Translations under genes and position numbers: made by a program
IMG/VR virus record: IMGVR_UViG_3300027708_003611
Span: 1 to 58,227 of that record
Length of the DNA: 58,227 nt
Origin: a virus
Strand: one strand, 5' to 3'
The notes under the pieces: generated by a model
The model's input: the letters and a program-made list of their open reading frames with translations, nothing else
The model's database searches: none
Told to the model about the DNA's origin: nothing
Part shown: piece by piece, positions 3,979 through 10,624 of the stretch
How the letters are laid out: every line of letters starts with the position of its first letter
Numbering within the stretch: the first letter of the stretch is position 1

Positions 3979-4114
3979 CTAGACGATTTAAGCGTTCAGT
4001 ATACACTCAATGACGAGGCTCTGGAAAAAGCGGTTGTCCCTTGAAGCTTTTAGGGATTGTCAGAGCCAAGTACTGATACAGTATGCTTATTCAGTAGCGT
4101 TATAAATCGTCTAG
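3979..4114 (+). ncRNA. Structured RNA candidate with an H-type pseudoknot
   Basis: A 136-nt non-coding stretch between rpsU and the phosphoribosyltransferase gene. An 11-bp perfect terminal stem pairs 3979-3989 with 4104-4114 and continues inward with weaker pairs. Inside, a 7-bp stem GGCTCTG/CAGAGCC (4017-4023 with 4061-4067) encloses two interleaved helices: AAAAGC/GCTTTT (4026-4031 with 4046-4051) and TCCCT/AGGGA (4037-4041 with 4052-4056). Interleaving makes a classic H-type pseudoknot with loops of 5 and 4 nt. TACTG (4071-4075) can pair with any of three CAGTA copies (3997, 4079, 4092), so switching is possible. It ends 7 nt before an ATG. It could be a riboswitch-like leader, a small RNA or an unknown ribozyme; I do not recognise a known family. 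Confidence 0.7.
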
Positions 4115-4673: not shown

Positions 4674-4764
4674 ACTGGGTTAGTGTAAATGGAAGCACCG
4701 ACAGCCTTATAAACTGTGTTCGCCAGATTAGCGACGAGCGTGGGTTCGATTCCCACACCCAGTA
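4674..4764 (+). tRNA. Class II tRNA, anticodon probably UAU (identity uncertain)
   Basis: Acceptor ACTGGGT (4674-4680) pairs with ACCCAGT (4757-4763), followed by discriminator A. The D stem is GTGT/GCAC, the T arm is GTGGG/CCCAC with TTCGATT, and a long variable arm has stem TCGC/GCGA. A long variable arm is normal for Leu, Ser or bacterial Tyr tRNAs. The anticodon loop CTTATAA (4706-4712) gives UAU, an isoleucine AUA anticodon, with one C-A mismatch closing the loop. Structure and anticodon therefore disagree. CCA is not encoded. Confidence 0.75.
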
Positions 4765-4777
4765 TTAATTTTAAAAT

Positions 4778-5053
4778 ATGCCTACTATAAGAATACCTAC
4801 ACCTTTAAGAAGATTAACAGATGGTCATGAAGAATGGACTGTATGTAATAGTCCAACTTTGAATGGCTGTTTAAACCATTTATGTAATTCATTTCCATCT
4901 ATTAAGGAAAGAATTTTTGACGAAAATAATGAAATAAGAAGATTTATTAATATTTTTGTTAATGATGAAGATATTCGTTTTCTACAAGATCTTAATACAC
5001 CTATTAAATTGAATGATGTTATCTCTATTGTGCCAGCTATAGCAGGAGGCTAG
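4778..5053 (+). CDS. CysO/MoaD/ThiS-like sulfur carrier protein
   Basis: A 91-aa beta-grasp (ubiquitin-like) protein ending in Gly-Gly (SIVPAIAGG), the end that is adenylated and thiocarboxylated in sulfur carriers. It starts with IRIPTPLRRLTDG, then has IKERIFDENNEIRRFINIF, VNDEDIRFL, and a final VISIVPA strand. This order is that of CysO-type carriers used in cysteine synthesis, and of MoaD and ThiS. No activating E1-like enzyme, cysteine synthase or JAMM protease is visible in the window, so the partner is probably from the host or elsewhere in the phage. It lies between two tRNA genes. Confidence 0.85.
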   Translation: MPTIRIPTPLRRLTDGHEEWTVCNSPTLNGCLNHLCNSFPSIKERIFDENNEIRRFINIFVNDEDIRFLQDLNTPIKLNDVISIVPAIAGG

Positions 5054-5060
5054 ATTATGA

Positions 5061-5135
5061 TCCCAAGTAGCTCAACGGTAGAGCAGCGAGCTGTTAACTC
5101 GCATGTTGTTGGTTCGAATCCAGCCTTGGGAGCCA
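5061..5135 (+). tRNA. tRNA-Asn (GUU)
   Basis: Acceptor TCCCAAG pairs with CTTGGGA, anticodon arm GCGAG-CTGTTAA-CTCGC gives anticodon GTT, and the T arm contains GGTTCGAATCC. Discriminator G is followed by an encoded CCA (5133-5135). The gene lies 7 nt after the sulfur-carrier gene. Confidence 0.95.
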
Positions 5136-5151
5136 CTCAACCAGTGCGCCT

Positions 5152-5200
5152 GTCCCGAAAATTAAAAATCTTGCGTCCTTTTTAATTTTCGGGACTTTTT
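5152..5200 (+). terminator. Strong rho-independent terminator
   Basis: A 17-bp perfect stem, GTCCCGAAAATTAAAAA (5152-5168) with its complement (5179-5195), has a 10-nt loop and a following TTTTT run. The A run on the 5' side makes it potentially bidirectional. It ends the rpsU-tRNA-Asn transcription region before the FkbM cassette. Confidence 0.9.
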
Positions 5201-5225
5201 AGCACATTTTTTATAATTAAAATAT

Positions 5226-5825
5226 ATGAATAAATACTTTGATTGCGGTACTCACGAGTTTGAGGGATTTAAAAAAATTACTGATATTCTTAAAGCAGAT
5301 AAAACATGGCAATGCTATTGTTTAGAAGCAAATCCCATAACTTACGTTAAATCTAAAAGTATTTTAGCTAAATTAGTATCTAGCTATAATATTGAACATT
5401 ATAATGTAGCTGTTACTGATTTTAATGGGTATACAAACGTTAATTGTGCTTACAAAATAAAAGACGGTAACGATCCATCTGATTTGTTTAGTTTCACAGA
5501 TGATGCGTCAAATATTCTATCCAACCCTCCTAGAGAGTTTGGTTATGTAAATATGCCGTTTATTGTACATGCAATCGATTTTGCAAAATTTTTAACATCA
5601 AGATGTGTTAAAGAAGATTATATTGCTGTTAAATTAGATATTGAAGGATGCGAATTTGGTGTAATCGATAAACTAATTGAAACAGGTACTATAGAATATA
5701 TTAATGAATTATTTGTAGAGTATCATGAGAGATTTTTTGATATTCCTGATTTTTACGCAGCTAAAAGAAAAAAATACGAAGAGTATTTTGCTGAGCATAA
5801 TATAAAGCATACTATTTGGGAATAA
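5226..5825 (+). CDS. FkbM-family SAM methyltransferase
   Basis: A 199-aa class I methyltransferase of the FkbM type. An N-terminal DCGTHEFEG resembles the SAM-binding glycine motif, CLEANP follows motif I as in FkbM proteins, and KLDIEGCEFGVIDKLIETG is the typical FkbM signature (usually KxDxEGxE). FkbM enzymes methylate hydroxyl groups on sugars or small metabolites. A TATAAT at 5212-5217 lies 8 nt before the ATG, and no Shine-Dalgarno sequence is present. It leads a three-gene run with an acetyltransferase and a SemiSWEET-like protein, so surface-sugar modification is a reasonable guess. Confidence 0.8.
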   Translation: MNKYFDCGTHEFEGFKKITDILKADKTWQCYCLEANPITYVKSKSILAKLVSSYNIEHYNVAVTDFNGYTNVNCAYKIKDGNDPSDLFSFTDDASNILSNPPREFGYVNMPFIVHAIDFAKFLTSRCVKEDYIAVKLDIEGCEFGVIDKLIETGTIEYINELFVEYHERFFDIPDFYAAKRKKYEEYFAEHNIKHTIWE

Positions 5826-5826
5826 T

Positions 5827-6354
5827 ATGAATGTTGGTAAGCATACGTACGGTTTAGAACACATACGTACAAAAAATTGGGGCGAAAAAGCAGAGCTTCA
5901 TATTGGTGCTTTTTGTAGTATAGCAGAAGGACTAGTAGTATATTTAGGAGGTAATCATCGCACAGAATGGGTGTCTACGTTTCCGTTTCATACCTGGAAT
6001 TTACCTGGGTATGATCCTGCTACCTCACATACTGCTAACGGCGATGTTATTATAGGTAACGATGTATGGATAGGGGCTAATGCAACAATTATGTCAGGTA
6101 TCACTATCGGGGACGGTGCTGTAATTGGTGCTAATAGTAATATTACAAAAAATGTTGATCCTTATACTATTGTTGGTGGTAATCCTGCAAAATTAATCCG
6201 CAAAAGGTTTACAGATGAACAAATAAAAAAACTTTTAAAGTTAGCCTGGTGGAATAAAACAGATGACGTAATAAAACATCTTACACCTTACTTGCTTTCT
6301 ACTAATATTGAAGAGCTTTTTATTTTTGTACAAGAAAGAGGATTTAAATTTTAA
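5827..6354 (+). CDS. Hexapeptide-repeat acetyltransferase (CatB/Vat-like)
   Basis: A 175-aa left-handed beta-helix acetyltransferase. The hexapeptide repeats are visible from GDVIIGNDVWIGANATIMSG through ITIGDGAVIGANSNI. The ending VGGNPAKLIRKRF is the hallmark of the xenobiotic/antibiotic and sugar O-acetyltransferase group. Such enzymes move acetyl from acetyl-CoA to a hydroxyl. It starts 1 nt after the FkbM gene and runs directly into the next ATG. The substrate is probably a sugar, given the neighbour; antibiotic acetylation is possible but less likely in a phage. Confidence 0.88.
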   Translation: MNVGKHTYGLEHIRTKNWGEKAELHIGAFCSIAEGLVVYLGGNHRTEWVSTFPFHTWNLPGYDPATSHTANGDVIIGNDVWIGANATIMSGITIGDGAVIGANSNITKNVDPYTIVGGNPAKLIRKRFTDEQIKKLLKLAWWNKTDDVIKHLTPYLLSTNIEELFIFVQERGFKF

Positions 6355-6624
6355 ATGAAAGAAATTATTAAAGAAATATCAGGAGCGATAATGACTATAT
6401 CGTTTATGCTTTGTTATGTACCACAAATACATAAAATTATTAAGCATGAAAGTTCAAAAGATATTTCACCGTGGATGATTATACTTGGTATGTTGGGTTA
6501 TATTTTTGGTATGGTATATATGTATGCAAATATTTTTGGTATTTGGTGGTTTTTGAATTATTTTACTGGCATCGTTACGTCTTCGGTATTATTATATTAC
6601 TGGTATAAGCACAAAAATGATTAA
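6355..6624 (+). CDS. SemiSWEET/PQ-loop family membrane protein
   Basis: An 89-aa protein with three predicted transmembrane helices (about residues 11-28, 39-58 and 65-82). The PQ-loop sequence CYVPQIHKIIKHESSKDISP sits at the end of helix 1. This three-helix, single-PQ-loop build is that of bacterial SemiSWEET sugar transporters, which work as homodimers. The gene follows the acetyltransferase with no gap and overlaps the next small gene. A transport role for sugars is an inference from family. Confidence 0.85.
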   Translation: MKEIIKEISGAIMTISFMLCYVPQIHKIIKHESSKDISPWMIILGMLGYIFGMVYMYANIFGIWWFLNYFTGIVTSSVLLYYWYKHKND

Positions 6625-6742
6625 ACTAAATCCCATTCGTATTTTTTTACAAAATGTGTTTTTTCGTATTTGGAACAGTTTTATTCCAAATTTTATATTT
6701 ATTTGCTTGCTTATTTACGTAATTTGGTCTTTAATAGCGTAG
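6617..6742 (+). CDS. Small membrane protein (41 aa)
   Basis: A 41-codon ORF from ATG 6617 to TAG 6740-6742, overlapping the end of the SemiSWEET-like gene by 8 nt. It starts MIKLNPIRIFLQNVFFRIW and ends in one strongly hydrophobic helix (FIFICLLIYVIWSLIA). The coupled overlap and clean membrane segment support it as a real gene. Function is unknown. Confidence 0.55.
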   Translation: MIKLNPIRIFLQNVFFRIWNSFIPNFIFICLLIYVIWSLIA

Positions 6743-6778
6743 TAATGAATAAAAAGATATTAAACAAATAACAATTTC

Positions 6779-6854
6779 GGGCTTGTAGCTCAATGGTCAG
6801 AGCAGTCGGCTCATAACTGATTGGTTGTAGGTTCGAATCCTACCGGGCCCACCA
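6779..6854 (+). tRNA. tRNA with CAU anticodon (Met, or Ile2)
   Basis: Acceptor GGGCTTG pairs with CGGGCCC (two G-U pairs). The anticodon loop CTCATAA gives CAU, the T arm is GTAGG-TTCGAAT-CCTAC, and A plus CCA are encoded. CAU can be elongator Met or, after lysidine modification, Ile for AUA codons, which are abundant here. The initiator type is unlikely, since the first acceptor pair is a normal G-C. Confidence 0.92.
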
Positions 6855-6867
6855 AATAAAAAAAATT

Positions 6868-7038
6868 ATGAATGAAATAATAACATCAACTGAAGCAAAA
6901 GTATTTCAACTCTGTATTGATTTAGAAGAAATGAAAACTCGTAAGAAAGCATCTGCGAAAAGCTTTAACGAAGAGATTAAGAGGATACAAGCTGAAATTA
7001 AAGATTTAATTAATCCACCTGAAGAAGAGCTTCCTTAA
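6868..7038 (+). CDS. Small helical protein (56 aa)
   Basis: A 56-aa ORF starting MNEIITSTEAKVFQLCIDL and continuing with a Lys/Glu-rich helix to EEELP. It sits alone between two tRNA genes (13 nt after one, 7 nt before the next). The composition suggests a short coiled coil. No function is recognised. Confidence 0.6.
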   Translation: MNEIITSTEAKVFQLCIDLEEMKTRKKASAKSFNEEIKRIQAEIKDLINPPEEELP

Positions 7039-7045
7039 CGAATAT

Positions 7046-7121
7046 GCCTGTGTAGTCCAACGGCAGAGACAAGCGACTTAAAATCGCTCCAGTATCGGTT
7101 CGAATCCGATCACAGGTACCA
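7046..7121 (+). tRNA. tRNA with UAA anticodon (Leu), class I shape
   Basis: Acceptor GCCTGTG pairs with CACAGGT (first pair G-U), and A plus CCA follow. The anticodon arm AGCGA-CTTAAAA-TCGCT gives UAA, which reads Leu UUA/UUG. The variable loop is only CCAGT, a class I shape, while bacterial and T4 tRNA-Leu have a long variable arm. Either a divergent Leu tRNA or a changed-identity tRNA. Confidence 0.88.
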
Positions 7122-7130
7122 ATTTTAAAA

Positions 7131-7343
7131 ATGAAACAACATTCTGATTACGCATTTTGGATAAAATTTAAAGGTCACGAATTTGTCTGCAATGTAGAAG
7201 GTACAAACGTAGCTATCGAGAGTAAAGGTATTATAGAAGAAACAGAATACGAAGTTCTTCGTAATTATCTTGAAGATGAGGGCTTTATACAAGAAATTGA
7301 TCGCCAAAAAGGCATTTTAAATCTTTTTAATAAGCACTCGTAG
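7131..7343 (+). CDS. Small hypothetical protein overlapping a tRNA gene
   Basis: A 70-aa acidic protein with HSDYAFWIKFKGHEFVCNVE at the N-terminus, a probable small alpha/beta domain. Its TAG stop (7341-7343) is supplied by tRNA positions 8-10, so its last 10 nt lie inside the tRNA-Arg gene. Cutting out the tRNA would remove the stop codon from the message. No function is recognised. Confidence 0.65.
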   Translation: MKQHSDYAFWIKFKGHEFVCNVEGTNVAIESKGIIEETEYEVLRNYLEDEGFIQEIDRQKGILNLFNKHS

Positions 7344-7409
7344 CTCAGTGGATAGAGCAGGGGTTTTCTAAACCCTTGGTCGCAGGTTCAATCCCTGCCG
7401 GGTGTACCA
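7334..7409 (+). tRNA. tRNA-Arg (UCU)
   Basis: Acceptor GCACTCG pairs with CGGGTGT. The anticodon loop TTTCTAA gives UCU, for AGA/AGG codons. The T arm is GCAGG-TTCAATC-CCTGC, and A plus CCA are encoded. AGA is a common Arg codon in this AT-rich genome, so the tRNA probably compensates for host codon bias. Confidence 0.94.
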
Positions 7410-7418
7410 CAAATTTAT

Positions 7419-7492
7419 GGAGTTGTAGCTCAGTTGGTTAGAGCATCTGACTGTCACTTAGAAGGTCGCGGGTTCGAGCCCCGTCAACTCCG
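7419..7492 (+). tRNA. tRNA-Asp (GUC)
   Basis: Acceptor GGAGTTG pairs with CAACTCC. The anticodon loop CTGTCAC gives GUC, and the T arm contains GGTTCGAGCC. Discriminator G is at 7492 and CCA is not encoded. It is separated by 9 nt from tRNA-Arg and 5 nt from tRNA-Lys. Confidence 0.94.
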
Positions 7493-7497
7493 GAAAA

Positions 7498-7569
<72 letters not shown>

Positions 7570-7579
7570 CTTCTTTTAC

Positions 7580-10567: not shown

Positions 10568-10592
10568 TTTTATATATTAGCAATAAAAGAAG

Positions 10593-10624
10593 ACGGCCGA
10601 TTGTAAAAGATCGGCCGTTTTTTT
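10593..10624. terminator. Bidirectional terminator
   Basis: Stem ACGGCCGAT (10593-10601) with ATCGGCCGT (10610-10618), an 8-nt loop and a run of T to 10624. It lies between the convergent genes ending at 10567 (plus) and 10623 (minus) and probably ends the plus-strand unit. The A-rich 5' flank (AATAAAAGAAG) would help termination on the other strand. Confidence 0.88.

Follow-up and report, generated by a model that had tools for sequence, protein, structure and literature searches.

The element described here lies in a 58,227-nt virus record with T4-type genes (hereafter the window, meaning the whole stretch of DNA analysed), whose UvsX is ~35% identical to cyanophage UvsX. In this record, rpsU and a phosphoribosyltransferase gene follow one another on the same strand at an intergenic distance of 149 nt, and almost the entire gap is taken up by a 136-nt structured element that runs from 6 nt past the rpsU stop to 7 nt short of the phosphoribosyltransferase ATG (Table 1), as the initial annotation had placed it. 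The G+C content of the element is 0.42, compared to 0.31 for the window. Seven tRNA genes are clustered in the window, with the element adjoining the cluster, and the record also encodes QueD-like, QueE-like and GTP-cyclohydrolase-like proteins.

The tRNA cluster (4674-7570) is itself a site of gene turnover; ~1.6 kb, with genes for a methyltransferase, a hexapeptide transferase and others, stands in place of the ~150 bp found in a related contig. After tRNA-Asn, a 17-bp perfect hairpin (5136-5195) stands behind a conserved flank, CTCAACCAGTGCGCC. The relative (around 4043-4106 of locus L002) keeps both the flank CTCAACCAGTGCGCC and the loop TCTTGCGTC, and its stem, almost all different in sequence, still pairs; across these two sequences the pattern suggests that structure and loop are under selection.

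Table 1. Features of the rpsU-phosphoribosyltransferase intercistronic region (window coordinates)
Feature	Position	Strand	Details
rpsU, encoding phage bS21, 74 aa	3748..3972	+	Pfam PF01165, E 3.7e-15; PHROG 21469
Tandem stop of rpsU, TAA TAA	3970-3975	+	
Structured intercistronic element	3979..4114	+	MFE -45.8 kcal/mol, z -4.93; absent from relative G001 (L002)
Closing stem, perfect 12 bp	5' arm 3979..3990, 3' arm 4103..4114	+	Pair probability 0.95-1.0 in 351-nt context
3' arm of closing stem	4103..4114	+	Occludes phosphoribosyltransferase start region (computed)
Imperfect extension of closing stem	5' arm 3991..4004, bulged pairing with 4081-4101	+	MFE structure
GC-rich inner stem	5' arm 4017..4024 (GGCUCUGG), 3' arm 4060..4067	+	Pair probability 0.99-1.0, 7 outer pairs
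Competing helix AAAAGC/GCUUUU	4026..4051 (4026-4031/4046-4051)	+	Pair probability ~0.002, nested-only model
Apical hairpin GUCCCU/AGGGAU, 10-nt loop	4036..4057 (4036-4041/4052-4057)	+	Pair probability 0.83-0.99
Phosphoribosyltransferase, 167 aa	4122..4625	+	Pfam PF00156, E 2.8e-18; start conserved with relative G001

The element is predicted to fold considerably more stably than shuffled versions of itself (-29.2 kcal/mol), none of the 200 shuffles reaching an equally good energy. The minus strand also folds stably (z = -4.08), and part of the fold signal therefore reflects an inverted repeat in the DNA; on the plus strand, G-U accounts for five of the 45 predicted pairs. In a G+C-corrected scan of the whole window, the fold lies at -3.8 sd, a level that about seven other places reach as well. 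Terminators, tRNA regions and coding sequence account for some of these places, which include the tRNA-Asn region, the repeat at the uvsX start and the terminator at 10589-10622. Inverted repeats that are perfect over 12 bp, contain five or more G/C and lie within 150 nt occur three times in the window, against 0.2 expected. Based on the outlying fold and the excess of such repeats, the modelled structure is probably not due to chance, if less extreme than the initial annotation took it to be. The sequence at 10589-10622, a strong hairpin flanked by T and A runs where two convergent genes end, is by its look a bidirectional terminator.

The closing and inner stems both form with a probability near 1 (Table 1), in agreement with the proposal of a stable structured RNA beside the phosphoribosyltransferase start and of a GC-rich inner stem; the closing stem, put at 11 bp before, is one pair longer. 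One TACTG segment (4071) and three CAGTA copies (3997, 4079 and 4092) were located as described. The loop of the apical hairpin holds the palindrome AAGCUU, through which a kissing dimer is conceivable.

The initial annotation had further suggested an H-type pseudoknot at the apex. Its two interleaved Watson-Crick helices, AAAAGC/GCUUUU (6 bp) and UCCCU/AGGGA (5 bp), are indeed present. When the loop was shuffled 5000 times by mononucleotide, no Watson-Crick combination of 6 + 5 bp arose; with G-U pairs allowed, 23% of the shuffles gave one. An H-type knot with a 6-bp first stem requires some nucleotides in the loop crossing that stem. Here, the GCUUUU and AGGGA strands abut, leaving a third loop of 0 nt. 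Taken together with the inner stem, the nested hairpin GUCCCU/AGGGAU reaches -16.3, compared to -12.7 for the AAAAGC/GCUUUU helix. Cutting the latter to 3-4 bp makes the knot feasible, with little gain over the simple hairpin. Because of the missing loop nucleotides and the competition from the simple hairpin, we consider the modelled pseudoknot doubtful.

A viral contig of 54.7 kb (G001) carries the same gene neighbourhood, with 96% identity in the upstream gene, 81% amino acid identity in rpsU and 58% in the phosphoribosyltransferase. In this contig, rpsU and the phosphoribosyltransferase gene are adjacent and co-directional but only 2 nt apart, and the element is absent. On the sequences compared, either the element is therefore a lineage-specific insertion or G001 has lost it. 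Two further contigs, G011 and G012, keep rpsU beside tRNA genes, in G011 also with a thyX-like ORF; the phosphoribosyltransferase and the element were matched in neither contig, G012 being assessed by sequence matches. Searches by the phosphoribosyltransferase and by the tRNA neighbourhood recovered G001 as the single relative with the region.

Searches with the element itself were likewise negative. It has no Rfam match at the gathering threshold and no riboswitch family match even at E <= 10, blastn against phages and plasmids yielded no homologue, and a covariance model run on 50 related viral records and 26 loci returned nothing credible. Exact words of 17-18 bases gave 15 matches in viral contigs and bacterial genomes, all extending barely past the word. 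One 20/22-nt match (G040) was rejected, as it lies within a coding gene, sugar-nucleotide-epimerase-like by eye, and lacks the structure of the element. A reading of the element as a gene remnant is unsupported, two of its reading frames being without Pfam match and a 31-aa ORF without PHROG match.

We computed the cost of opening the start regions of 49 genes in the window. The phosphoribosyltransferase start costs 17.2 kcal/mol, the third highest value (rank 47/49; median 6.4), and 5.6 kcal/mol with the element left out of its context; in this computation the structure thus occludes the downstream start, as coupling by RNA unfolding calls for. Based on this model, the hairpin probably prevents free translation of the phosphoribosyltransferase. 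The uvsX start ranks fourth highest, at 15.9; it is enclosed by a 23-nt inverted repeat (87%; 44371-44393/44462-44484), the 5' arm of which is kept in seven aligned relatives, with the neighbouring 4 nt varying. TAATAT in the arm of this repeat could also be a promoter box.

The phage encodes bS21 though a Shine-Dalgarno (SD)-like motif is found in only 4 of the 49 checked genes. In Bacteroidia, where bS21 helps to hide the anti-SD, initiation calls for little structure around the start and for A at -3, -6, -12 and -13 (PMC9976891), and phages carrying bS21 often infect Bacteroidetes (PMC9723584). From the weak SD use only, we infer a Bacteroidota host. The phosphoribosyltransferase start has the favoured A at none of these four positions.

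Taken together, the element is a genuine hairpin, restricted to its lineage and occluding a start in our models; it is of an ordinary kind and familiar in mechanism, and not a recognisable new riboswitch. As the best explanation, though one that we put forward tentatively, we suggest that this intercistronic hairpin makes the phosphoribosyltransferase depend on rpsU translation, as in rpmI-rplT. The element would act in cis within the rpsU-phosphoribosyltransferase message, its closing stem masking the ribosome start region of the downstream gene. With genes mostly lacking a Shine-Dalgarno sequence, reliance on unstructured start sites would be expected. The 5' arm begins 6 nt past the rpsU stop, and a terminating ribosome should therefore cover part of it; by occupying the first nucleotides of the arm, the ribosome would loosen the stem. 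Consistent with partial relief, placing the ribosome edge at 3982-3990 lowers the computed start-opening cost from ~17 to 9-10.5 kcal/mol. With the edge at 3984, which a terminating ribosome would pay ~14 kcal/mol to reach, the cost is ~9 kcal/mol, still above the median. The phosphoribosyltransferase might then be translated mainly, and weakly, during rpsU translation, through coupling by RNA unfolding, for which this geometry is known from rpmI-rplT and f1 VII-IX (PMC12548453).

The co-directional arrangement of the two genes in G001 also counts for coupling, whereas the lack of any homologue, and hence of covariation or conservation behind the element, counts against it. The 149-nt spacing is a further argument against, given that in f1 VII-IX, where a long hairpin precedes the start, coupling is lost at +89 nt (PMC12548453). 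Insulation of the phosphoribosyltransferase from rpsU, or plain repression, would fit the same data. Structure, occlusion, partial relief and absence from a relative are results of computation; coupling, along with any importance that it may have for the phage, we infer from them.

Among the rival explanations, we give most weight to a neutral or recent insertion, an inverted repeat without selected function that sits between the genes by happenstance. Such an origin, unlikely but to be taken seriously, would agree with the absence of the element from the only close relative having the gene pair and from two further relatives having rpsU, with the failure of every search to find a homologue, and with the similarly strong folds elsewhere in the window, some of which are coding; it is at odds with the rarity of GC-holding 12-bp inverted repeats, the gene density of the phage and the close framing of the element by stop and start codons. 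The perfect 12-bp terminal inverted repeat, the clean presence/absence difference to the relative and the stable folding of both strands could also be reconciled with a MITE-like mobile-element remnant, whose CTAG ends could hide a 4-bp target duplication. We regard this origin as improbable, since a single copy is present in the window, neither phages and plasmids nor, on exact-word scans, viral and bacterial genomes yielded another, and there is no unambiguous direct target repeat. A small free-standing RNA, either processed out of the message or produced independently, is a somewhat better candidate than a mobile remnant, yet still rather unlikely. By analogy, it would correspond to T4 RNAs C and D (139 and 119 nt) at the edge of a tRNA cluster, and the size of the element, its position next to seven tRNA genes, its raised G+C content and its closed rod shape would suit such an RNA. 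Promoter-like and terminator-like sites are not above chance, however, sequence, covariance-model and Rfam searches are without match, and relatives with a similar tRNA cluster lack the element.

Other regulatory roles appear less probable. We see only a slim chance that the element is a new, narrowly distributed phage RNA linking bS21 to the phosphoribosyltransferase, either by acting in trans or as a regulated switch in which CAGUA and UACUG pair in alternative ways and the apex forms a kissing loop or pseudoknot. An insulator or ribosome termination structure blocking re-initiation after rpsU is very unlikely; a stable fold starts 6 nt past the stop, in a gap longer than 25 nt, but the lowest 40-nt window reaches only -5.3 kcal/mol, against the required <= -6, because the stem is long-range. 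The initial annotation had considered a ligand-sensing leader (PRPP, purine or preQ1) or a bS21 feedback site, both of which we find barely credible. The position ahead of a phosphoribosyltransferase gene and the QueD-like, QueE-like and GTP-cyclohydrolase-like genes of the window would be in keeping with a riboswitch; against it stand the Rfam result, the weakness of the pseudoknot and the G001 gene pair without the element. The proposed ligands rest on the name of the neighbouring gene only, and when it comes from one metagenomic contig that lacks relatives, a stable fold argues only weakly for a riboswitch. Feedback by bS21 is disfavoured because the element is located 3' of rpsU and is missing from all three relatives with rpsU.

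These assessments are mirrored in comparisons with known systems. The element shares with preQ1 riboswitches the H-type pseudoknot, as proposed, and the queuosine-type genes in the same window, but it is far larger, has a third loop of 0 nt and has no Rfam match. It resembles T4 RNAs C and D in size and in its position at the side of a tRNA cluster; RNA C, unlike the element, ends in a tRNA-like T arm, the covariance model found no match on the T4 stretch, and no shared sequence or structure was detected. Ribosome termination structures, defined by a 40-nt window at <= -6 kcal/mol near the stop, likewise feature a stable structure right past the stop and an intergenic distance above 25 nt (PMC7518266), but the stem of the element is long-range. 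Escherichia coli rpmI-rplT, in which coupling by RNA unfolding operates at a spacing of +52 nt (PMC12548453), differs in its shorter gap (52 versus 149 nt), the whole hairpin being intergenic here, and also in that the element is not conserved and gives no evidence of ribosomal-protein repression. In both cases, however, a ribosomal-protein gene lies upstream and a long-range structure covers the downstream start; here too, the upstream ribosome might disturb that structure. If coupling is true, the phage would tie a nucleotide-metabolism gene to the synthesis of its own bS21 by an intercistronic hairpin, seemingly without SD use, a neat but expected use of the principle known from rpmI-rplT.
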